Positions 7,146 through 52,482 of a stretch of 64,000 nt of DNA are shown piece by piece; within the stretch, counting starts at the first letter, position 1, and each line of letters starts with the position of its first letter. The notes beneath the pieces were generated by a model. The model saw nothing but the letters and a program-made list of their open reading frames with translations. It had not been told where the DNA came from and made no database searches. A program made the position numbers and the translations under genes. The stretch is from Clostridium sp. CX1 (GTDB lineage Bacteria; Bacillota; Clostridia; Clostridiales; Clostridiaceae), in contig NZ_JAODOO010000012.1 of NCBI RefSeq assembly GCF_025398335.1, positions 62,001 to 126,000 of the forward strand, given 5' to 3'.

Positions 7146-8384
7146 TTATGCTGCTGAATCAACAACGATTTCCTTACCTTCTTTACGCCACTTAGCAAAT
7201 TCCGCTGTTGCTGTGAATAATGCATCTGTTGACGAATTAAGTGCTGTTTCGCAAGAATCTTGTAAAACCCCCACAATAAAGCCTACACCAACTACCTGCA
7301 TAGCAACATCATTTGGAATTCCGAATAAGCTACATGCTAGAGGAATAAGTAGTAATGAACCACCGGCAACTCCTGAAGCACCACAAGCACATACAGCTGA
7401 CAGTACACTAAGAATTAGTGCAGTACCTATGTCCACCTGAATACCAAGAGTATTTACTGCTGCAAGAGTTAACACTGATATTGTAACAGCTGCACCGGCC
7501 ATATTTATGGTAGCACCTAATGGAATAGACACAGAATAGGTATCTTTATCTAAACCTAACTTTTCACATAAACTCATATTTACAGGAATATTTGCTGCTG
7601 AACTACGTGTAAAGAAGGCTGTAATACCACTTTCTTTTAAACACTTAAATACTAGTGGGAATGGATTCTTACGAATATTTAAGTAAACAATAATTGGATT
7701 TAAAACAAGTGCTACAAAGACCATACAACCAATTAAAACTGCAAGCAATTTTCCGTAGCTTAGTAAAGATGCTATTCCATTTGTAGCAATAGCGTCAAAT
7801 ACAAGGCCCATGATTCCTAATGGTGCAAAGTTTATTACCCATGTAACCATTTTTGATAAGGCATCTGAAAAGTTAGTAATAAATGTTTTTGTAGAATCAG
7901 AAGCATTTTTTAAAGCGAAGCCAAGCACTACTGCCCAAGATAGTATACCGATATAATTAGCATTAAAAAGTGCTTTTATTGGATTATCAACAAGATTTAA
8001 TAGCAGTGATTTAAGAACCTCTGTCACACCACCAGGAGGAGTAACATTCTCAGCACCCCCTGCAAGTATTAAGCTTACTGGGAACATAAAGCTTGCAACA
8101 ACAGCTATAAGTCCAGCTAAAAATGTTCCTAAAAGATAAAGGACTATAATCGATTTCATATTGGTCTTATGTCCACTCTTATGTTGAGATATTGCGGACA
8201 TAACTAAGAAAAGTACTAGCATGGGAGCAATGGCTTTTAAAGCACCTACAAATAAGGAACCCATAATGACAATTGGTTTTGCTGCTTCTGGAATCGTTAC
8301 AGCTAAGATAATACCGACAATTAAACCTATAATTATTCTTTTTACTAGGCTCAATTGATTCCACTTATTCATTAGATTTTTCAC
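7146..8384 (-). CDS. sstT: Serine/threonine:sodium symporter, SstT type
   Basis: 412 residues in the dicarboxylate/amino acid:cation symporter (DAACS) fold. About eight membrane segments plus re-entrant loops are visible. The substrate/Na+ region is recognisable: [14 protein letters not shown] (hairpin 1 serine-rich motif), [20 protein letters not shown] (TM7) and [21 protein letters not shown] (TM8). Close agreement with SstT implies Na+-driven serine and threonine uptake. The start is GTG behind AGGAGG. It stands alone with its own terminator. A D-serine ammonia-lyase gene further along suggests interest in serine catabolism, but they are not in one operon. Confidence 0.92.
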
Positions 8385-18403: not shown

Positions 18404-20680
18404 TTAAATTTTCATATCCGTTATATATTCTTTTAGATACTTTCCTGTAATAGAAGAAGAGGAATTAATCAAGTCTCTAGGATGTCCTTGGAATATCACC
18501 TTGCCTCCATCCTGACCTGCTCCTGGACCTAAATCTATAATCCAATCCCCTTGACACATTATATCAAGATTATGCTCTATCACAATTAAGGTACTACCTT
18601 GGTTAACAATGTGGTTCATAATTTTGATAAGCTGTGACAGATCAGACATGTGCAACCCTGTAGTTGGCTCATCTAATACATATATATTCCCTTCTTTCTC
18701 CAACTCTGCTGCAAGCTTAAGTCTTTGAAGTTCACCACCAGATAGTGTATCTAAGGATTGACCTAGGCTAATATAGCCTATTCCTACATCTTTCAATCTT
18801 TTCAAAGTAGCAAATATTTCTTTTTCACAAAAAAATTCCAAGGCTTCATCAACTGTCATTTTAAGAACCTGGCTAATATTTTTATTTCGTAATTTAAATT
18901 GAAGTACTTCCTTAGTAAATCTATTTCCTTGACATGCTTCACAAATACCTACCACCGGATCCATAAAAGCTAAGTCAGTATAAATTACTCCTAATCCCTT
19001 ACATTCTGTGCAAGCTCCATGAGAATTAAAGCTGAAAAGAGAAGCTTCCGCACTGTTTTCTTTTGCGAAGAGCTTTCGGATAACATCAAAAATCCCTGTG
19101 AAGGTAGCTATATTAGAACGCTTAGAACCTTGAATTGCTCCTTGATCTATAAAAATTGCCTCAGGATAATGCTTTTTAAATATACCATTTATAAGAGTAC
19201 TCTTCCCAGAACCAGCTACTCCTGTAATCACAGTCATAACACCTATAGGTATATCCACAGAAACCTCTTTCAGATTGTGCAAGGAGGCATTCTTTATAGA
19301 TATCCATCCCTTAGCTTCCCTTGTACTTTCTTTCAAGGTAGTTCTACGATTTAAAAACTTTCCTGTCAATGTATCTGCTTTTAATAAACCTTCTACTGCT
19401 CCCTGATACATAATATTTCCGCCTTTTTTGCCAGCTTTTGGCCCCATATCAATCACATAGTCTGCAATTTTAATTACATCCGGATCATGTTCCACTATTA
19501 AAACAGTATTTCCTTTATCTCTTAATAACTTTAAAAGGTTATTAAGCCTAGTCACATCATGGGGATGAAGACCTATGCTTGGTTCATCAAAAATATAAGT
19601 AATATCTGTTAAACTGCTTCCTAGTTGACGAACCATTTTTATTCTTTGTGATTCCCCTCCAGAAAGTGTGGCTGTTTGTCTATCTAAGTTTAGGTATCCT
19701 AGTCCCACAGAATTTAAATGTTCTAATCGATTAATAATAGATTCAACTATTGTATAGGAAGAAGGCTCCTTAATATTCTCTATAAAGCTAATTAACTTAC
19801 TGACCTGCATTTTTGTACAATCTGTAATATTTTTGTCCTTTATTTTGCACTGTAGTACCTTTTGGTTAAGTCTTCCACCATTGCATAATGGGCAAGTTCC
19901 TCTGGTAACCACGTAATCAATATCCTTTTTATATAGCTTAGCATCCCTGCATTCTTTGTTTAAAAAAGTCCGTTCAATTCTCGGTATAACCCCTTCATAC
20001 TTTGAAGTGGTGGGCCACCCTTCTCCAGGATTTGTGAGCTTAAAACCTGCTTTATAAAGGAGGGTATCCCATTCCTCCTGGCTATAATCCTTAAGTTTCT
20101 TGTCATTATCAAAAAGTCCTGTACAAACATATCTTTTCCATCGTACCTCTCCTGGCCTAAAGGTTGGAAACTGAATGGCTCCTTCATTTAAAGATTTACT
20201 TTTATCAATTAGTCTATCAATATTGATTATATCTATTTTTCCCAATCCTTCACATTTAGGACACATTCCTGCAGGATTATTAAAGGAAAACACATCAGAA
20301 TAGCCTACAAAAGGTATACCAATACGTGAAAATAACAACCGCAAAAGAGAGTAAATATCCGTTATAGTTCCAACGGTTGACCTTCCATTTCCTCCTATTC
20401 TCTTTTGGCTAACTACAATTGCTACAGAGAGATTTTCAATTGAATCTACATCAGGCTGTCCGTAATGCGGAAGACGGTGACGTATAAAACTTGAATAGGT
20501 TTCGTTCAATTGACGTTGTGATTCCGCTGCAATTGTATCAAATACAAGAGATGACTTTCCTGAGCCTGAAACTCCGGTAAAAACAGTGATTTTCTTCTTT
20601 GGAACCTCTATATTAATATTCTTTAAGTTTTTCTCTCTAGCTCCAGTAACATGAATATTATTGGATTTTTCTTTTTTCAT
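18404..20680 (-). CDS. UvrA paralogue (short excinuclease ABC subunit A-like ATPase)
   Basis: 758 residues, clearly shorter than canonical UvrA (about 940). Two ABC halves are complete: Walker A GVSGSGKSS (36-44) and GVAGSGKST, signatures TLSGGESQRIKM and TLSGGELQRLKL, Walker B YIFDEPSIGLHPHD and YVLDEPTTGLHMSD. Zinc-finger pairs CPKCEGLG, CPLCNGGR, CTECKGLG and CEACQGNRF are present. The missing length fits loss of the UvrB-interaction region, as in UvrA2/DrrC-like proteins tied to DNA-damaging drugs. It is divergent from a WYL regulator that probably controls it. Confidence 0.88.
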   Translation of the reverse strand: MKKEKSNNIHVTGAREKNLKNINIEVPKKKITVFTGVSGSGKSSLVFDTIAAESQRQLNETYSSFIRHRLPHYGQPDVDSIENLSVAIVVSQKRIGGNGRSTVGTITDIYSLLRLLFSRIGIPFVGYSDVFSFNNPAGMCPKCEGLGKIDIINIDRLIDKSKSLNEGAIQFPTFRPGEVRWKRYVCTGLFDNDKKLKDYSQEEWDTLLYKAGFKLTNPGEGWPTTSKYEGVIPRIERTFLNKECRDAKLYKKDIDYVVTRGTCPLCNGGRLNQKVLQCKIKDKNITDCTKMQVSKLISFIENIKEPSSYTIVESIINRLEHLNSVGLGYLNLDRQTATLSGGESQRIKMVRQLGSSLTDITYIFDEPSIGLHPHDVTRLNNLLKLLRDKGNTVLIVEHDPDVIKIADYVIDMGPKAGKKGGNIMYQGAVEGLLKADTLTGKFLNRRTTLKESTREAKGWISIKNASLHNLKEVSVDIPIGVMTVITGVAGSGKSTLINGIFKKHYPEAIFIDQGAIQGSKRSNIATFTGIFDVIRKLFAKENSAEASLFSFNSHGACTECKGLGVIYTDLAFMDPVVGICEACQGNRFTKEVLQFKLRNKNISQVLKMTVDEALEFFCEKEIFATLKRLKDVGIGYISLGQSLDTLSGGELQRLKLAAELEKEGNIYVLDEPTTGLHMSDLSQLIKIMNHIVNQGSTLIVIEHNLDIMCQGDWIIDLGPGAGQDGGKVIFQGHPRDLINSSSSITGKYLKEYITDMKI

Positions 20681-20780: not shown

Positions 20781-20803
20781 TTCTGTTGCAAAGGAGATTT
20801 CAT

Positions 20804-21736
20804 ATGTCAAAGGCTAAAAAAATATTTGATTTAATTATGTATGTAAATTCTAAGAAAAACTTTACTGCTCAAGATGTTGCCTATGAATTTAACATATCTG
20901 TCAGAACTGCTCATAGATATTTAATGGAAATAAGCGAATTAGGAGTTCCTATATATACAGAGCAGGGCAGAAACGGCGGCTATCGCACACTAAAAAATAG
21001 AATTCTTCCTCCAATCATATTTGATGAAAATGAGGCCCTAGCAATTTTCTTTGCCTTTCAATCACTAAAGTACTACAAATCACTACCCTTTGATACAGAT
21101 ATAGATTCAGCTTCTAGAAAATTGTATGCCACTCTTCCTGAGGATGCCAAAAACAAAATAAACCGTTTAGAAACACTTATATGCCTATGGAATCCAAAAC
21201 GAAATATTGCCTCTCCATTTTTAAAGGATATAGTTGAAGCAGTTCTTGAGAGTAATACATTAATAATTGAATATGTATCAAAATCCAAAAATAAAAAAAG
21301 AGAAGTTAAACCCATTGGAGCATATGCCTATGACGGACTTTGGTATATGCCTGCCTTTGACCTGGAAAAGGATAAGGTTTTATTATTTAGAGTGGATAGA
21401 ATCGCCTCTTTAGAAGTTTCTAAAAAAACTTACCAGTTTCCAATGAATTTAATAGATTGGTTTGATAGCTACACTATTAAAAGGCCTGTAAGATTACATG
21501 TTAAGCTTACAAGAGAAGGTATAAGACAGTGCCAGAGTAAATCATGGTTAGAACCCCACATTGTTGTTATGGATGATGAGAATGGGTATATTGATACAAT
21601 AATTGATAAGGATGAGCTAGATTTTGTTTCTAATTATTTTCTTCAGTTAGGCATTTCTGCAAAGGTTATTGAACCACAAGAAATAGTAGATAATATAAAA
21701 AAACAAGCACATGCCCTGATAAATCATTACATATAG
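20804..21736 (+). CDS. HTH-WYL (YafY family) transcriptional regulator
   Basis: About 310 residues. The start at ATG 20804 is set by AAAGGAG upstream; an in-frame TTG at 20786 precedes the ribosome site and is unlikely. N-terminal HTH_11 domain (FTAQDVAYEFNISVRTAHRYLMEISELGVPIYTEQGRNGGY), then a WYL domain (IEYVSKSKNKKREVKPIGAYAYDGLWYMPAFDLEKDKVLLFRVDRIASL) and a WCX-type C-terminus. WYL regulators bind nucleic acid or nucleotides, often responding to DNA damage. Placement beside the UvrA paralogue supports a damage-linked role. Confidence 0.92.
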   Translation: MSKAKKIFDLIMYVNSKKNFTAQDVAYEFNISVRTAHRYLMEISELGVPIYTEQGRNGGYRTLKNRILPPIIFDENEALAIFFAFQSLKYYKSLPFDTDIDSASRKLYATLPEDAKNKINRLETLICLWNPKRNIASPFLKDIVEAVLESNTLIIEYVSKSKNKKREVKPIGAYAYDGLWYMPAFDLEKDKVLLFRVDRIASLEVSKKTYQFPMNLIDWFDSYTIKRPVRLHVKLTREGIRQCQSKSWLEPHIVVMDDENGYIDTIIDKDELDFVSNYFLQLGISAKVIEPQEIVDNIKKQAHALINHYI

Positions 21737-21805: not shown

Positions 21806-23599
21806 TTAACTTGGAAACATTAGACACTCCATAAAGAGTCTTTCATAACCTTCTGATGCCCCTAGTTCCATATAATCTATCTGATGGGCGAGTTTTTCTA
21901 TTTGCTCTTTTACATCTGCAGACATAAGGGCCATATATGCCCCGGTTTTAGAGGAATTACCTACATATACCAGCTTATCCCTAACTTCCTCTGGCAATAT
22001 GCCTATGCCTACTAAGCTATCTGCAGGCAAATGAGCTCCGAACTGTCCTGCTATAACAACTTTATCAAGCTCGCTCATATTGATGTTTGCCTTTTTTAAC
22101 AGAGCATAAAAACCTGAAAGGATAGCTCCCTTTGCTAATTGTACTTGACGAACATCCGACTGTGTAATTAGCAGTTTTTTTGGATTACTACTTAAAACAA
22201 ATTCTCGTTTTTTCCCGTCTAACTGAAGCATATTATAACGATAATCTGATTCTTCCAGCTTTTCCTTTTTTATAAATGCTCCATCTTTTTTTACAAGACC
22301 TACTCCAATTAATTCTTTTACTACAGCTAATATACCGCTGCCACATACACCTATTGGTTCCTGCTCTCCTATAACTTTAACTTCAATTCCGCTTTCAGTG
22401 ATTTTCACATCTTCAATGGCACCCTCTGCTGCCCTCATACCGGAGCTAATGTTCATCCCCTCTAAGGCTGGACCTGCAGCACAGGAACAGGATAAAAGCT
22501 TTCCATGATTGGATAAGACAATTTCCCCATTAGTTCCAATATCTATAAATAGTACATTCTCCTTAGCCTTGTGTAGTTGACAGACATATGCACCGGCTAC
22601 AATATCAGCTCCTATATAAGCTGAGACCGATGGAAGACAATAAAGCCTAGCACCTGGAGCTGCCTCTAAGCCAATATCCTTTGCCAATATGTTTTTTGAT
22701 TTCACAAATATTGGTGCATAGGGAGATTTTCCTATAGAGGTTGCATCAATTCCTAAAAGAAAATGCATCATTGTACAGTTTGCGGCAATAGAAATCTCAT
22801 ATATGTTTCTTCTATCTACCTTTGATTTATTACATATATCTCCAATCATCTCATTAATAGAGCTAACAATTGCATACTGCAGCTTTTCCTTAGAATCCTC
22901 TGGGTGCTCTACTTCATAAGTGATTCTAGTTAAAACATCCAGCCCAAAGTTCTTTTGAGCATTAATCATTGAAGCTGTAGCTAATTCCTTACCAGTATTC
23001 ATATCAATCAGCGAAGTTACAACTGTGGTAGTTCCAATATCCACAGCAACTCCGTAAAGAAGGTCAGTAGTATCACCGGCTTCAATTCCAATTAACTCTC
23101 TGCCATTAAAAACTCCTGTAACTTCTCCAATCATAAATTCACGCTGCTGCAACAGTCTCCAATCAAATTTTTCAACATCAAAGGTGTTGCATATAGCCTC
23201 TTCAAAGGAACTTTGATTTTCTAAGGTAGGCTTTTCTATTTTAAAAATCTTCTTATGGATTAAAGGATTAAATTCAAAATCTGGAACATATCCCGTTGTA
23301 AGTATTTTATGCTTCCCTTCCTTTTGTAAAACTTCAATTACAATATCTCCTTGTGGTACTACCAAACAGGATAATCTTATGCCTGAGTTGATTTCTTCCT
23401 TCTTTAAAAGTTTTGCCTCTGTTTCTGACATATCCGGCAGATTTCCTTCTAAAAGTCTAATCTTACATTTTCCACAGGACCCTTTTCCATTACAAGGATT
23501 GTCAACGAAAACCTCATTTTCTAACAAAAGCTTCAGCAAATTTTTTCCCGGCACATATTTAAAGCTTTTATTTTCAGATTTAATAGAAATCTTAGCCAT
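21806..23599 (-). CDS. Corrinoid activation protein (RACo-like, 2Fe-2S plus ASKHA domain)
   Basis: About 597 residues; ATG 23599 is chosen because GGAG sits seven bases upstream. The N-terminal 2Fe-2S ferredoxin domain has Cys36, Cys42, Cys45 and Cys78. A linker leads to a DUF4445/ASKHA ATPase-like domain with GVAVDIGTTTVVTSLIDMNTG, FIDIGTNGEIVLSNHG and AGQFGAHL. These proteins use ATP and a low-potential electron to return inactive Co(II) corrinoid to Co(I). The gene is last in the operon, overlapping the end of the MtaA-like gene, so it almost certainly serves the corrinoid protein encoded here. Confidence 0.93.
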   Translation of the reverse strand: MAKISIKSENKSFKYVPGKNLLKLLLENEVFVDNPCNGKGSCGKCKIRLLEGNLPDMSETEAKLLKKEEINSGIRLSCLVVPQGDIVIEVLQKEGKHKILTTGYVPDFEFNPLIHKKIFKIEKPTLENQSSFEEAICNTFDVEKFDWRLLQQREFMIGEVTGVFNGRELIGIEAGDTTDLLYGVAVDIGTTTVVTSLIDMNTGKELATASMINAQKNFGLDVLTRITYEVEHPEDSKEKLQYAIVSSINEMIGDICNKSKVDRRNIYEISIAANCTMMHFLLGIDATSIGKSPYAPIFVKSKNILAKDIGLEAAPGARLYCLPSVSAYIGADIVAGAYVCQLHKAKENVLFIDIGTNGEIVLSNHGKLLSCSCAAGPALEGMNISSGMRAAEGAIEDVKITESGIEVKVIGEQEPIGVCGSGILAVVKELIGVGLVKKDGAFIKKEKLEESDYRYNMLQLDGKKREFVLSSNPKKLLITQSDVRQVQLAKGAILSGFYALLKKANINMSELDKVVIAGQFGAHLPADSLVGIGILPEEVRDKLVYVGNSSKTGAYMALMSADVKEQIEKLAHQIDYMELGASEGYERLFMECLMFPS

Positions 23600-24632
23600 T
23601 AATAACTCCATCTCCTTTTGATAAATAGTCTACCATAGCTTTCACATTTTTCAAAGGAGACTTCATTCCAAGTCCACAGGCTGGAGATATTATATTTGCT
23701 CCGTCTTTCACACATTTTTCAGTTAGTTCAGTGATTTTCTTTGCTTCGCCGAATTCAATAGCATAAGTACTTACATTGCCCATTAGTAATCTGTTTCCCA
23801 GATTTTTTCTTGCATCGCTCATATTAACTATAGAATCAAAACTTAAAACATCACTTTTGATTTTATTTACTTCTGGGTAAACCTTCTTCATTTGTCCACA
23901 TATATGTACAATTGTACCTACATTCTTATTTTGTATACTATCAACAATTTTATTAAGGTATTTTACAGCAAATTCTTCAAATAGCTTAGGTCCTAAAATT
24001 TCACCGGTGCCGCTAGGGTCAGAAATTGCAATTATGTCTGCTCCTGCTTCTATTTGTTTTGTTGCAAATAAAATTAACTGCTCTGTAACAAAATTAAGAA
24101 ATTCATGTGCTTCCTTATTACTTTTCTTTAGCTCCTTATAAAAAGTGGAAGGTTCCATTATAGAGCTTGCTGTACTAATAGGGCCTGTTAAATTACCTAT
24201 AATAGGAACATCACTACCCTTCAATTTTAGCAGTTTTATAGCATCAATAACTACCTTTGCTCTTCCCTCTTCATAGCTAATCTCAGAAATTTCTTTCCAT
24301 TCCTTAACAGAATTAATTGCATATTCTACAACATGAGGCTCATAAATATTTGTGCCCATATCAACTTTTGCTCCAAAATTTTCTGCCTCTATAGTCATAC
24401 AGAAGGGAACACCGTAATTTTCAAAGCAACCTTTTTCATATACTGCTGTTGCTAAATCAGCCATCATTTCAGCATTCAAATGAGCCTTTTGAAATTCTAC
24501 TCCAACCTCCTCTATTAACTCTGTTGTAACCATATTCATCATGCCGCCAGGACAAATACATGGTGGTCTATCAACTTTTTCTCTGCCAAATACCTTCATT
24601 AATCGTTCTTTTGGCAATAACATAGCCCTCAC
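23592..24632 (-). CDS. UroD-fold methylcobamide methyltransferase, MtaA-like
   Basis: 346 residues in the uroporphyrinogen decarboxylase superfamily, methyltransferase branch. Zinc ligands are readable: His243 and Cys245 in IVHICGQ, and Cys319 in ISPACGLG. MtaA/MtbA-type enzymes move a methyl group between a methylcorrinoid protein and a thiol; other members demethylate substrates. Six bases separate it from the corrinoid gene upstream, and it overlaps the activator gene downstream. Whether it is the donor-side or acceptor-side enzyme cannot be told. Of the three UroD proteins in the operon it looks closest to MtaA. Confidence 0.88.
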   Translation of the reverse strand: MRAMLLPKERLMKVFGREKVDRPPCICPGGMMNMVTTELIEEVGVEFQKAHLNAEMMADLATAVYEKGCFENYGVPFCMTIEAENFGAKVDMGTNIYEPHVVEYAINSVKEWKEISEISYEEGRAKVVIDAIKLLKLKGSDVPIIGNLTGPISTASSIMEPSTFYKELKKSNKEAHEFLNFVTEQLILFATKQIEAGADIIAISDPSGTGEILGPKLFEEFAVKYLNKIVDSIQNKNVGTIVHICGQMKKVYPEVNKIKSDVLSFDSIVNMSDARKNLGNRLLMGNVSTYAIEFGEAKKITELTEKCVKDGANIISPACGLGMKSPLKNVKAMVDYLSKGDGVING

Positions 24633-24638
24633 CTCTTT

Positions 24639-25295
24639 CTACGCTATATTAAGCAATGTCTTTATTTGTTTAACTGCCTCAACTGCATTAGGAGAATAAC
24701 CATCTGCACCAATTATATCTGCAAATTTCTTTGAAATTGGTCCTCCACCTATAACAACCTTAACTTCTTCTCTTATACCCTCTTCTTTTAATAATTCTAT
24801 AACAGTTTTCATGCCTCCCATTGTTGTTGTCATTAATGTGGACATACATACGAAGGATGCATTAACCTCCTTAGCCTTATCTACAAAATTTTGAAGTGGA
24901 ACGTCTCTTCCTAAATCAATCATTTCAAATCCAGCTGTTTCTAACATGATTTTCACTAGATTTTTTCCTATATCATGGGTGTCTCCTTCTACAACTCCAA
25001 TTACTCCCTTTGGCTTTTCTTTTTCTACTTCATCTGAAGGAAGATGAGGTCTTAAAATTGCTAAACCTTCATACATTGCATCTGAGCATAATAATATATC
25101 TGTAACAAAATATTCTTCCTCTTCATATAATTGACTTGCGCGGTTCATACCATCTACAAGACCTTCCAGAATACCTTCAAGTATTGGATACCCTGCTTCT
25201 ACATATTCATTAGCTGCTTCAATTACATCATCCTCTTCCATATCCACTACACCATCAGATAATCTCTTTAATAATTCTTCCTTTAATACTGCCAT
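24639..25295 (-). CDS. Methyltransferase corrinoid protein (MttC/MtaC-like)
   Basis: About 218 residues; start ATG 25295 with GGGGGGA eight bases upstream. An N-terminal helical cap domain (about 1-90) precedes the cobalamin-binding Rossmann domain. The base-on/His-on motif DxHxxG is D105-T-H107-D-I-G110, and the downstream STLMTTTMGG and VVIGGGPIS segments complete the site. His107 should be the lower axial ligand of cobalt. It carries the methyl group between the UroD-fold enzymes and is reactivated by the RACo-like protein. Confidence 0.95.
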   Translation of the reverse strand: MAVLKEELLKRLSDGVVDMEEDDVIEAANEYVEAGYPILEGILEGLVDGMNRASQLYEEEEYFVTDILLCSDAMYEGLAILRPHLPSDEVEKEKPKGVIGVVEGDTHDIGKNLVKIMLETAGFEMIDLGRDVPLQNFVDKAKEVNASFVCMSTLMTTTMGGMKTVIELLKEEGIREEVKVVIGGGPISKKFADIIGADGYSPNAVEAVKQIKTLLNIA

Positions 25296-25358
25296 TATTT
25301 TTCCCCCCACTTTTTAATAACTAATATATTTATTCCGATTCAATTTTCACTTCATATG

Positions 25359-26429
25359 TTAAAGGAAATTTCTTGGGTCCAAAGGCCACTTTCCATATTT
25401 TCTGGCAGAAGCCATAAATTGGTCAATATTTTCTAGCGGAACAGCTCCTGAAAGATCACAGCCTGATGCTAAAATATATCCACAAGGACTGTCATAAGCC
25501 TTTTGTATGCAGGTTTTTACTGCTAAATCTACATCATTAGTATTTCCTAGAATCAGTACTTCTACTGGGTCTACATTTCCAAGGATAGGAACTTTATCTC
25601 CTACCACTTCTTTTGTATAGGCTAAATCTACCCTGTTATCAATACTCATCATATCACAGCCTGACTTAACCATTTCTCCTACGATTGCCGTTGTATCTCC
25701 ACAAATATGGTAACAAACCATTCCTTTTGCATCATGAATATCTTTCATCAAATCTATTGTGTATGGTAGAACGAATTCCAAGTATTGTTTTTTATTAAGA
25801 ATTGTTCCTGATGCAATAGGATCGCATAATAGAATAAGAACACCTGCTTTTATGAATTCTCTACAAATCATTTTTAGTGCATCGTTACAGAATTTAATTA
25901 ATTGATGCAGTTTTTCAGGATTTTTTCTAGTTGCTCTTAACAAATTTTCTGTTTTATAAATACTGGAAGCAGCAGTAAACGGTCCAGATATTAAAACTCC
26001 CGTTGGAACTTCATTTCCTATTTCGTCTATAATGATACCTGCAGCTTCTAAGTGCAGCTGGAAGGCTTTATCATTTTTTAGCTCTAATTTTGACATATCT
26101 AACTTGTCAACATCATTCAAGTCCTCTAGAACATATTTCATGATTGCTGGTACAGAGTCCTCTGGGTCACTCATTTCACTGCCTAGAGCTGCACCTACAC
26201 CATGCAATCCATATTCAACAATTGCTAAATCATTTCCAAATCTTTCATAACAGGCAATCTGTGCCTTTGCTTCATTTAAAGCACTGCTTCTTTTTTCCTT
26301 GTGAGTCATTCCAAGTGCTAATCCTGACATAGAACAAGCAACTGGCATAGCTAGAATTCTATCCATAGGTTTTCCTGTCATAAATGCGGCCAATCTTTCA
26401 TTTGGTGTCATCTTATCATCTTTGTGCAT
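25359..26429 (-). CDS. UroD-fold methyltransferase, possible substrate-side enzyme
   Basis: 356 residues. Zinc motif H241-I-C243-G with Cys324 in LASGCDLSG, and the barrel segments ISGPFTAASSIYK and CDPIASGTILNKKQYLEF. Members of this branch include methyl donor:corrinoid methyltransferases. No MttB, MtaB, MtgB or MtmB homologue is present, so this protein is the best candidate for binding the methylated substrate, which is unknown. It lies between the third UroD gene (41 bp gap) and the corrinoid gene (63 bp gap). Confidence 0.85.
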   Translation of the reverse strand: MHKDDKMTPNERLAAFMTGKPMDRILAMPVACSMSGLALGMTHKEKRSSALNEAKAQIACYERFGNDLAIVEYGLHGVGAALGSEMSDPEDSVPAIMKYVLEDLNDVDKLDMSKLELKNDKAFQLHLEAAGIIIDEIGNEVPTGVLISGPFTAASSIYKTENLLRATRKNPEKLHQLIKFCNDALKMICREFIKAGVLILLCDPIASGTILNKKQYLEFVLPYTIDLMKDIHDAKGMVCYHICGDTTAIVGEMVKSGCDMMSIDNRVDLAYTKEVVGDKVPILGNVDPVEVLILGNTNDVDLAVKTCIQKAYDSPCGYILASGCDLSGAVPLENIDQFMASARKYGKWPLDPRNFL

Positions 26430-26469
26430 ATAATGTCCTCCCTATATAAATCAATATTTTTACTAATAC

Positions 26470-27339
26470 TTACAGCAAATTAATTGTTTTGATTATTCCA
26501 TTTTTTAATTCAAATTCTTTATCTTTAATACACATTTGTCCAACAAACTTCGCTTGTCCCATTACTTTTATGCAGGCTTCGGAGTATTTTACAGGCTCTC
26601 CAAGGTTAATATCCTTCCATACCGCTTTATCTGTTCCTATCAATGCGAAAGTAGTTTTAGGGCAAAGTAATACAATTGTTTCATCATTAATTATTTCTTC
26701 AATCTTCTTTAACAGTGGGTAAGTAAACATTTCTACCGTTTGTTCTGCAAATTTAGGCCCTAGAATATTTAATCCTCCAGAAGAATCAGCATAACTAATC
26801 ATATTTACTCCTGCTTTTTGAGCCTCTTTAACAAAACGTAATAGTTCCTTCTCAAATTTATTAAAAATAGCTTGCATAGTATCTGGATCTTTTCTAAAGA
26901 TCTTAAAAATGTGACGTGGGTCAATTAAAACATTCATAATTGTAAAGGGACCAGAAATATATAGGAGTACATTCTCCCCTTTATCTCTTAAATGCTTACA
27001 AGCTTTTAAAACTTCTGATATACGTCCCTTTGAGTAATCGATTTCAGGTAGATTTAATATTTCCTGTGCAGATGCACAAATATAGTCTTTTGCTCTTGGA
27101 CCTATATTTTCATCTCCAAAATTAATACTTCCTCCCAAGGCTTCTCCTTCAACGGTATGACAAAATGGTAAACCACAGAAATTTGCCTTATCATACTTTT
27201 TCAACTCTTCTGCCAAGAGAGCCATGCTATCCCAATGCTTATAGGCTTCTGGAAACTGCAAGTCCAATTTTTCTGTAACTTCTTTATTAATTCCTATAGA
27301 ATTATCATATGTACACTTAAAGTCAACAATTTTACTCAT
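26470..27339 (-). CDS. Short UroD-fold protein with altered metal site
   Basis: 289 residues, 55-65 shorter than its two neighbours, mostly at the N-terminus. FCGLPFCHTVEGEALGGSINFG, LYISGPFTIMNV and YADSSGGLNILGPKFAEQ follow the methyltransferase pattern. Where the other two have HxC, this one reads LLCP: Leu224 replaces the zinc His, Cys226 remains, and Cys270 (GQMC) may be the third ligand. It may bind metal differently, act non-catalytically, or be an unusual substrate enzyme. The gene is intact, with GGGGG upstream, 12 bases after cobW. Confidence 0.8.
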   Translation of the reverse strand: MSKIVDFKCTYDNSIGINKEVTEKLDLQFPEAYKHWDSMALLAEELKKYDKANFCGLPFCHTVEGEALGGSINFGDENIGPRAKDYICASAQEILNLPEIDYSKGRISEVLKACKHLRDKGENVLLYISGPFTIMNVLIDPRHIFKIFRKDPDTMQAIFNKFEKELLRFVKEAQKAGVNMISYADSSGGLNILGPKFAEQTVEMFTYPLLKKIEEIINDETIVLLCPKTTFALIGTDKAVWKDINLGEPVKYSEACIKVMGQAKFVGQMCIKDKEFELKNGIIKTINLL

Positions 27340-27351
27340 GATTCCCCCCTG

Positions 27352-28263
27352 TTAACTAAAACATTTTAATATTTTTTCTTTCTCTAAATTACTGCCAATA
27401 ACAGCTACCTTTGTTTCTTTGCATTCTTCTGTATATTCCCAGTGGTAATGATGTGGAGTAAAATCAAAATAAACAAATTGCCTTGTATTAAGTTCTAGAA
27501 TTCCCTTAGCTCTTAAAACAAAGCCATATTCCTTGTCCTTTAGAGAAACTAGCATGTTATCAAGCTCTTCCTCGGAAAAAACCTTAGGACTAGCAAGGGA
27601 TAAAGTACCAAATACTTTATTAGCAGGCACTGATAAAGCTTTTCCCTCTAAATTAGTTTCACAGCTCTTGATTGTATTTAATATTTCAATTATTTGTTCT
27701 CCATTATAGGAATACCAGTTCTCTTTGAGAATAAATGCTTTCTCATTATTTAATCTTATTTTTGAAATTACTTTTTCAACTTCTTTGTCTTCTGTTTTGT
27801 CCAAATGACTTAAAAAAATAATATGAGCATTTTGAATTTGATCCAAATAAAATTCCCCAAATATCTCTAAATAATCTTCGAATGCACTGGCATCTACAAT
27901 AGTTATTAATTGATTTATTCTTATATCAAGCTGTGGATTTTCAGAAATCTTCTTGCAGGCCCTCACAACATCTGATAAATTCCCAACACCAGAGGGTTCT
28001 ATAAGTATGCGGTCTGGTCTATACTGCATAACTAACTCTTCTATACTTTTTTTAAAATCTTGTACTAAACTACAACAAATACATCCAGCATAGATTTCCC
28101 TAATAGGCAGGTTATCACTGATTAAGTCTCCATCAATTCCAATATCACCAAATTCATTTTCAATTAAAGCAGTTTTACCTTCCATACCTGGAATGATTTT
28201 TTTTAAAAAAGTGGTCTTTCCAGCTCCTAGGAATCCAGAAATGATGCTTATATCAATACTCAA
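27352..28263 (-). CDS. CobW/COG0523-type G3E GTPase (metal or cobalamin chaperone)
   Basis: 303 residues. P-loop GFLGAGKTT (10-18), ENEFGDIGID (35-44), metal-binding CxCC in AGCICCS (C61, C63, C64), IEPSGVG, and SHLDKTE as the GTPase guanine-specificity region. A CobW C-terminal domain with a Trp/His-rich end (HHYHWEY) follows. COG0523 proteins deliver zinc or cobalt, or aid cobalamin-dependent enzymes. Leading the corrinoid operon, it probably loads metal into the UroD-fold zinc sites or helps cobalamin insertion. Confidence 0.9.
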   Translation of the reverse strand: MSIDISIISGFLGAGKTTFLKKIIPGMEGKTALIENEFGDIGIDGDLISDNLPIREIYAGCICCSLVQDFKKSIEELVMQYRPDRILIEPSGVGNLSDVVRACKKISENPQLDIRINQLITIVDASAFEDYLEIFGEFYLDQIQNAHIIFLSHLDKTEDKEVEKVISKIRLNNEKAFILKENWYSYNGEQIIEILNTIKSCETNLEGKALSVPANKVFGTLSLASPKVFSEEELDNMLVSLKDKEYGFVLRAKGILELNTRQFVYFDFTPHHYHWEYTEECKETKVAVIGSNLEKEKILKCFS

Positions 28264-28302
28264 TGCAATTCTCCTTTGTAACTAAATTTTTTATTTCTAT
28301 GG

Positions 28303-28321
28303 AAAAGTACATAGTACTTTT
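28303..28321. promoter_or_regulatory. Palindrome upstream of the corrinoid operon
   Basis: AAAAGTAC (28303-28310), ATA, GTACTTTT (28314-28321): a perfect 19-base dyad about 40 bases upstream of the cobW-like start. Candidate operator. I looked for a cobalamin riboswitch in 28264-28556 and saw none. Confidence 0.5.
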
Positions 28322-28556
28322 TCATTCTATGCTTTATAATCTCCAAGTAATTTTATCATTATAAATAATGTTGGTCTAATTGATATTTCTTATCTTTTAA
28401 TTCATATCTATAAGTTTTTTTTATCCTCCATTATTTATTACCCTTATATTTTTAAAAATCTATCTGTATCTTGGATATTTTAAGTGTATAAGTCATATCA
28501 AGTTAATATAAGAAGGCTACAAACGAACATAATTCATCTGCAGCCCTTATAAGTTA

Positions 28557-29162
28557 TCAATAATATTGGTTACTCTGAGGTCGTAATGGAAAACAGAAGC
28601 TTTCTCTTTCTATAGAATTACAATTATTATGTTGAGATTTTATATTTTTGAGATTGCCTTTATAAATTATTTTACCTTTTAAATCTAGTAAACTTTGAGG
28701 TCTCACAAGATTTCTTGATATATCAAGGTCTGCAATATTGCTTTCCTTTAAAATATGATACACAAACTCTGAACATAGAAATCTAGTCTCCGAGCATTCT
28801 GCCTTATTAAATAGACTATGAATTAGCCCCTTGTAATTATATTTATAAAGATTACTATTAAAAATAAAATGATTCAGTAAATCTTTAGCCTTCTTATACT
28901 GCTGTTTTGATACCTCTACTTCCATTATTACACCGGGTAAATTTTTATGAAATTTATATAATCCTTCATCAACTTTTTCTTGTCTAAACCTTCCTACAAA
29001 AGGATTATAAGTATTCTTTCTTCCAAAACCATACATATTGTTCAGTTCTTTGTCTAAAGATATAGCTGCATGAGTATATTCATCATTCTTAACAAACTGA
29101 ATAAGCTTAGACATTACTGTGTTTGTCCTTGTAAGAACTATATATAAACAATATTTTTCCAT
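28557..29162 (-). CDS. Permuted papain-like amidase fold protein (YiiX/YebB-like)
   Basis: 201 residues, no signal peptide. The His motif YTHAAISL (about 30-37) comes before the Cys motif RFLCSEFVYHIL (about 127-138), the order expected for circularly permuted NlpC/P60 papain-like proteins. Relatives are predicted amidases or acyl-hydrolases acting on peptides or lipids; the substrate is not known. The C-terminal ~30 residues are Asn/Ser-rich and look disordered. It stands alone on the minus strand, downstream of the YjdM-like gene. Confidence 0.75.
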   Translation of the reverse strand: MEKYCLYIVLTRTNTVMSKLIQFVKNDEYTHAAISLDKELNNMYGFGRKNTYNPFVGRFRQEKVDEGLYKFHKNLPGVIMEVEVSKQQYKKAKDLLNHFIFNSNLYKYNYKGLIHSLFNKAECSETRFLCSEFVYHILKESNIADLDISRNLVRPQSLLDLKGKIIYKGNLKNIKSQHNNCNSIERESFCFPLRPQSNQYY

Positions 29163-52266: not shown

Positions 52267-52302
52267 AAATAATGTACTAAAAAGAAAATTAAATATAAAG
52301 TT

Positions 52303-52446
52303 TTAGGTACTTTTATAATGTTTAAAAGGGAAAGTGGTGAAAATCCACTGCAGCCCCCGCTACTGTATACGGAGACGAATTCTATATCCACTGGATTTAT
52401 CTGGGAAGGAAGAAGGAGAATGATCCGTGAGTCAGGAGACCTGCCT
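52303..52446 (+). ncRNA. Cobalamin (B12) riboswitch aptamer
   Basis: The conserved core is easy to follow: TTAGGTAC start, AAAAGGGAA, GGTGAAAATCCACTGCAGCC, CCCGCTACTGT, then CCACTGG, TCTGGGAAGG, and the final GAGTCAGGAGACCTGCC. These are the standard B12-box elements in order. It should bind a cobalamin and switch the downstream RNA. Only a 15-codon ORF and two terminators follow, so no normal target gene exists here. The corrinoid operon in this window is more than 24 kb away. Confidence 0.95.
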
Positions 52447-52482
52447 TTTGCTTTTAATTGCTATCTTTCGGAGGGAGAGAAA

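Follow-up and report, generated by a model that had tools for sequence, protein, structure and literature searches.

On the minus strand of a 64,000-nucleotide stretch of the Clostridium sp. CX1 genome (contig NZ_JAODOO010000012.1, positions 62,001 to 126,000; hereafter the window) lie six co-directional genes, running from position 28263 to 21806, that encode a CobW GTPase, three UroD-fold proteins, a corrinoid protein and a RACo-type activase. An earlier, sequence-only reading of this DNA had placed the six genes on one strand and named their families, both of which are borne out by the open reading frames and by Pfam and NCBIfam matches; the Pfam family matches of all six proteins lie far above chance. 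It had gone on to suggest that the operon lacked any recognisable substrate enzyme and served an undescribed methyl donor, a view from which we depart below. The genes, with amino acid (aa) lengths and Pfam E-values, and with the UroD-fold proteins named after their published counterparts, are:

28263-27352 (-): CobW/COG0523 GTPase, the first gene of the operon, 303 aa (PF02492, 1.2e-35; CobW_C, 4.1e-06)
27339-26470 (-): Mlp1, a short UroD-fold methyltransferase homologue, 289 aa (PF01208, 4.2e-22)
26429-25359 (-): Mlp2, a UroD-fold methyltransferase with an HxC...C zinc motif, 356 aa (PF01208, 7.1e-79)
25310-24639 (-): corrinoid protein, the methyl carrier, with a DTHDIG motif, 223 aa (B12-binding PF02310, 2.3e-26; B12-binding_2 PF02607, 1.6e-17)
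24632-23592 (-): Mlp3, a UroD-fold methyltransferase, 346 aa (PF01208, 9.2e-82)
23611-21806 (-): RACo-type (Ram/RACE) ATP-dependent corrinoid reductive activase with a 2Fe-2S domain, 601 aa (RACo C-terminal PF14574, 2.5e-75; PF17651, 8.1e-63; Fer2 PF00111, 3.6e-08)

Measured from the open reading frame starts, successive genes are separated by 12, 40, 48 and 6 bases, followed by an overlap of 20. The maximum gap of 63 bases reported earlier is obtained if the corrinoid gene is begun at an ATG five codons further in; from the starts used here the largest is 48.

The operon as an mlp gene cluster

In a 2023 preprint, Kountz and Balskus described a cluster in Clostridium ljungdahlii DSM 13528 with the order Mlp1, Mlp2, corrinoid protein, Mlp3 and activase, named it the mlp gene cluster and identified 367 of its kind (PMC10418091). 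Their type 1 clusters run in one direction with at most 2 kb between genes, lack any homologue of the tetrahydrofolate methylases within 20 kb, contain Mlp2 and Mlp3 of separate lineages, and carry a His-Cys-Cys zinc site for which several Mlp1 exceptions are allowed (PMC10418091). In the window the six genes share one direction, with spacing of 6-48 bases and the single 20-base overlap, and no folate methylase lies within 20 kb: the operon sits on contig C4 of the assembly, Pterin_bind matches occur on C7, C8 and C45 only, and MtrH has no match. Mlp2 and Mlp3 each group with their C. ljungdahlii counterpart in a starred branch of their own and possess both the HxC and the distal Cys of the zinc site, of which Mlp1 has lost the His. 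The genome also holds the selenocysteine machinery that marks the selenium class. Judged by sequence, the operon thus belongs with the type 1 mlp gene clusters, in the subtype of C. ljungdahlii, and the system was already described in 2023; gene types were assigned here by orthology to Mlp1-3 of C. ljungdahlii ERI-2, where the preprint applies a threshold of >25% identity to a characterised coenzyme M (CoM) methyltransferase.

The tree behind these groupings comprises 78 rows and was built by a quick method with SH-aLRT support only. Within it, each of the three window proteins falls with its namesake from C. ljungdahlii. One starred branch holds the Mlp1 proteins (27 rows) and another the Mlp2 proteins (26 rows), inside which the window type (11 rows) makes a branch of its own. 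Mlp3 proteins fall in three branches and not one; the deep branching order is not trustworthy, given a warning from the tool about long branches meeting.

When the window Mlp2 was scanned against 84,980 species genomes, a search from which the window's own or very near genomes may be left out, 15 loci were returned, and in 11 of them (L006, L007, L009-L016 and L020) all six genes stand in the window's order, the corrinoid gene of L016 matching in two overlapping pieces. The remaining loci are partial: C. ljungdahlii ERI-2 (L008) retains five genes and a broken CobW, L018 has the first five genes and then a contig end, L017 starts inside Mlp1, and L019 has Mlp2 only. Identity between the window and ERI-2 is 85.5% for Mlp1, 93.5% for Mlp2, 86.5% for the corrinoid protein, 83.8% for Mlp3 and 86.5% for the activase. 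Across the cluster loci Mlp2 (81-95% identity to the window) is more conserved than Mlp1 (64-90%, the cut L017 not counted) or CobW (56-80%), as if it were under the tightest constraint. The window's cluster shares with that of C. ljungdahlii its gene content and order, the lack of a folate methylase nearby and a genome with selenocysteine machinery, and differs from it in the intact CobW at its head, which is broken in ERI-2. What is new here is a further member of the system, in an acetogen, with that intact CobW and with a lineage-wide change in Mlp1.

Selenium or sulfur compounds as probable methyl donors

The genome assembly (4.24 Mb, 71 contigs, 99.97% complete) encodes a selenocysteine tRNA scoring 62.7 bits against a gathering score of 47, the sole one of 17 matches above it, and a selD gene with an in-frame TGA at 398.5 bits against a cut-off of 125; selA and selB also exceed their cut-offs, and all four lie on one contig. 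Among 14 control genomes, five were above the cut-off for the tRNA and two for selD. Across 225 genomes of the order, with Mlp3 and selB each called at E up to 1e-60, Mlp3 was found in 46 and selB in 105, and selB was present in 41 of the 46 genomes with Mlp3 against 64 of the 179 without it (Fisher test, p 2.9e-11, a value that assumes independent genomes although these share ancestry). Broken down by Mlp3 identity, selB accompanied 12/12 genomes at 75% or above (all 12 at 77% or above, the window's included), 15/15 at 50-75% and 14/19 below 50%.

Biochemistry points the same way. C. ljungdahlii Mlp2 transfers methyl from methylcobalamin to selenide in vitro with an apparent kcat of 0.778 per min and a KM of 79.8 uM selenide, and is 4.3-fold slower with sulfide (PMC10418091). 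In Methanococcus maripaludis, the operon thought to be SdmABC rises by 5.6-7.8 log2 under selenium depletion (PMC11097638). As described there, the Sdm proteins of Methanococcus voltae and M. maripaludis resemble the present system in pairing a corrinoid protein with corrinoid methyltransferases linked to methyl-selenide use, but Sdm is archaeal and the likeness is drawn from descriptions of that system. We therefore favour, at a probability of roughly 0.78, the reading that the cluster demethylates methylated selenium (less likely sulfur) compounds and passes the methyl group to a thiol or C1 acceptor.

Given the observed gene content, order, orthology, zinc motifs and selenocysteine machinery, and with no dedicated folate acceptor nearby, we infer the in vivo substrate, the methyl acceptor and what Mlp1, Mlp3 and CobW do along the following lines. 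The activase would reduce the corrinoid protein to Co(I); the His-Cys-Cys zinc site of Mlp2 would bind methylselenol or dimethylselenide, and more weakly methyl-sulfur compounds, whose methyl group would move to Co(I); and the freed selenide would feed selenophosphate and selenoprotein synthesis. Mlp3 would probably take over the methyl group from the corrinoid protein and place it on a thiol such as sulfide or homocysteine, with AcsE or a MetH-like protein encoded elsewhere in the genome as alternative acceptor enzymes, and CobW would probably load zinc into the Mlps.

Several observations weigh against demethylation of selenium compounds. The selenide assay of C. ljungdahlii Mlp2 followed the reverse reaction, used free methylcobalamin and gave a slow rate (PMC10418091). 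Selenium genes were not found within or beside the operon, no acceptor emerged, and Mlp1 is without its zinc-site His. Shared ancestry inflates the association of Mlp3 with selB, and the 64 selB-bearing genomes without Mlp3 include one from the same genus (G113). Among the papers listed by searches for later work on the cluster, three were relevant, namely the 2023 preprint, a chloromethane paper and the study of selenium in Methanococcus; in the literature consulted we found no in vivo test of the system's role in bacteria. Because the assay was reversed, and because the strain assayed (DSM 13528) differs from the one compared here (ERI-2), a selenium donor is strongly suggested but not proven.

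The strongest competitor is that the cluster acts on methyl-sulfur substrates, such as methanethiol, dimethyl sulfide or thioethers derived from methylthioadenosine, in methionine or sulfur salvage. For the ~10% of cluster-bearing genomes that show no selenium traits such a role has been proposed, and the slower sulfide activity of C. ljungdahlii Mlp2 would accord with it (PMC10418091), as would the resemblance of Mlp3 to thiol methyltransferases. All five of the 46 Mlp3 genomes without selB have Mlp3 of 44-46% identity, and they recall the non-selenium clade of the preprint. Yet selB is universal among the 12 closest Mlp3 genomes, and the assayed Mlp2 orthologue prefers selenide (PMC10418091), and we regard methyl-sulfur compounds as unlikely principal substrates.

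Mlp3, the acceptor and the case for folate

Mlp3 passes NF004889, the NCBIfam model for methylcobalamin:CoM methyltransferase, at 427.2 bits against a cut-off of 244, and matches the MtaA structure 4ay7 at 3.1e-49. These two matches make it the best candidate for the acceptor-side enzyme; a thiol is the likely methyl acceptor. To our knowledge CoM itself is not expected as the acceptor in a clostridium.

The earlier reading had remarked that no MttB-, MtrH- or MeTr-type gene lay near the cluster, and profile searches of the genome agree. The known folate acceptors are absent from the operon; MtrH has no match in the window's genome, nor does the MttB superfamily (PF06253), for which the control, Methanosarcina acetivorans, was positive. 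Pterin_bind has three matches in the genome: a 282-aa frame on C8 and an 810-aa frame on C7, which by length only are FolP-like and MetH-like respectively, and AcsE on C45. Kountz and Balskus likewise remarked on the absence of a folate methylase from the cluster, and related clusters occur in genomes without any tetrahydrofolate methylase (PMC10418091).

These findings bear on a methylotrophic reading, in which a methyl group from an aryl methyl ether or other donor would reach tetrahydrofolate through an acceptor encoded elsewhere and enter the Wood-Ljungdahl pathway. The genome could supply the parts, with AcsV, AcsB and AcsE above their cut-offs (which mark the host as an acetogen), and with a MetH-sized pterin-binding protein besides the AcsE of its acs cluster; expression of the mlp cluster is also higher in autotrophic C. 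ljungdahlii (PMC10418091). Set against this, MtrH and MttB are without a match, none of the three Pterin_bind matches (one being AcsE itself) is on the operon's contig, and related clusters persist where no folate methylase exists. Moreover, Mlp2 and Mlp3 carry the Cys-rich zinc motif of sulfur and selenium enzymes, unlike O-demethylases, which have carboxylates or substitutions there (PMC10418091). We consider methylotrophy improbable.

Weaker still is the original proposal that the system serves a methyl donor not yet described. It had been right to give the donor role, and possibly also that of the acceptor enzyme, to UroD-fold enzymes and to note the lack of a folate methylase nearby. Its premise of a missing substrate enzyme was wrong, because UroD-fold proteins can be substrate-specific enzymes: OdmB, VdmB, MtvB, MtoB and CdmB are established donor enzymes of this fold (PMC13222342), and Mlp2 of the described operon has been assayed. 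In favour of an undescribed donor, we found no in vivo product in clostridia in the literature, and Mlp1 and Mlp3 are without assigned substrates. But the operon has been described, and the Mlp2 of C. ljungdahlii DSM 13528 has been assayed with selenide (PMC10418091). Close identity of one UroD-fold protein to a characterised donor enzyme had been named in advance as what would remove the novelty, and at 93.5% identity to the ERI-2 orthologue the window Mlp2 comes near to this, although the enzyme assayed is that of DSM 13528. An undescribed donor now seems barely tenable.

Two known systems were also considered and rejected. An O-demethylase of the OdmB/VdmB/MtvB type with a missing MTII was set aside because no folate-methylating MTII lies in the cluster, neither MtrH nor MttB is found in the genome, and the zinc motif points to sulfur or selenium. 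A chloromethane (CdmB) system was discarded since Mlp2 matches CdmB weakly (5e-06, residues 204-348). CdmB and the O-demethylase systems of Acetobacterium share with the window a UroD-fold donor enzyme and a corrinoid protein, but the cdm cluster includes a folate-methylating MTII (PMC13222342), which the window's operon does not. A trimethylamine or betaine system of the MttB type fails for want of any PF06253 match in the genome.

Mlp1, CobW and the surrounding DNA

The zinc-site His of Mlp1 (position 224) is replaced by L, M, V or Q in 17/17 proteins of the near clade and retained in 17/17 distant Mlp1 proteins. The near-clade count is of distinct sequences and excludes L017, cut by a contig end, and L019, which has no Mlp1; of 13 genome or window copies, ten are identical to a counted sequence. 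Elsewhere in the near-clade proteins, position 61 has become an invariant His, in a PFCH loop that follows a barrel strand, and Cys226 and Cys270 are invariant too. In none of the profile, MtaA and MAFFT alignments is Cys270 paired with the distal zinc Cys of either Mlp3 or MtaA, the MtaA alignment ending two residues before it. Compared with MtaA (4ay7), Mlp1 lacks the zinc His and is shorter by ~60 residues. Mlp1 keeps its barrel, with the metal site changed. Residue counts and strand order prompt the tentative, and on balance doubtful, idea that this site was rebuilt rather than allowed to decay, and that with CobW Mlp1 might act as a soft-metal- or selenium-binding partner instead of a standard zinc methyltransferase.

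In CobW, the motifs GCICC and TPHH are invariant in nine aligned orthologues. A full-length CobW match adjoins Mlp1 in 15/17 near-clade loci, being broken in L008, where only the middle part matches (7222-7611), and absent around L041/L063; it occurs within the 16-17 kb examined in 7/16 far loci, from a far set of 17 genomes of which 16 have long flanks (G103 left out). CobW, GTPase and metallochaperone go unmentioned in the main text of the preprint (PMC10418091). According to Haas et al. (2009), COG0523 subfamily 13 co-localises with corrinoid methyltransferase genes, some zinc-dependent, also in Clostridium botulinum (PMC2770081). The window agrees with that subfamily in genomic context, having a CobW GTPase next to corrinoid methyltransferases. 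CobW is probably a metal (zinc) chaperone for the zinc methyltransferases.

Other genomes offer two variations. In G105 an intact near-clade Mlp1 stands alone (L063, 7452-8321), none of the other five proteins finding a match within ~7 kb on either side, and an Mlp3 of 54% identity lies on another contig. In G146 CobW is broken as in ERI-2 and Mlp1 is identical to that of ERI-2, so G146 may be the same species as C. ljungdahlii ERI-2.

Within the window's genome there are five UroD-family matches, three in the operon and one each on C2 and C71, and the latter two both fall in the Mlp2 branch of the tree. On C2 (L028, 6265-9314) a double-cubane protein, a corrinoid protein and the Mlp2-group UroD protein stand in a row; double-cubane protein has been linked to selenium (PMC10418091), and the trio is a second methyl-transfer locus, one possibly linked to selenium.

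Around the operon, the upstream neighbour (28557-29162, -) lies at a distance of 293 bases and matches nothing in Pfam or NCBIfam at E 0.001, and a convergent gene for a regulator with a WYL domain (20786-21736, +; Pfam) follows downstream. No RNA element upstream of the operon was matched in Rfam up to E = 1 at 28200-28700, and a pattern scan gave 40 promoter-like sites against 44.8 expected and five terminator-like sites against 4.2. A strong cobalamin riboswitch (120.8 bits) at 52288-52462 (+) is possibly orphaned: the longest same-strand open reading frame that starts after it and ahead of a convergent gene's 3' end has 46 aa. At 18404-20680 (-) a UvrA-like protein of 758 aa, against 924-943 positions in the UvrA models, scores above the TIGR00630 cut-off and below that of NF001503 and is probably a short UvrA paralogue.

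With the operon placed among the mlp gene clusters, what had looked like a gap in corrinoid methyl-transfer chemistry disappears, and a widespread system of selenium (or sulfur) salvage gains another acetogen. The zinc-site change of Mlp1 and the CobW partner raise two concrete questions on how such a machine is assembled; were the site of Mlp1 indeed rebuilt, it would mean a division of roles within a three-UroD methyl-selenium machine.

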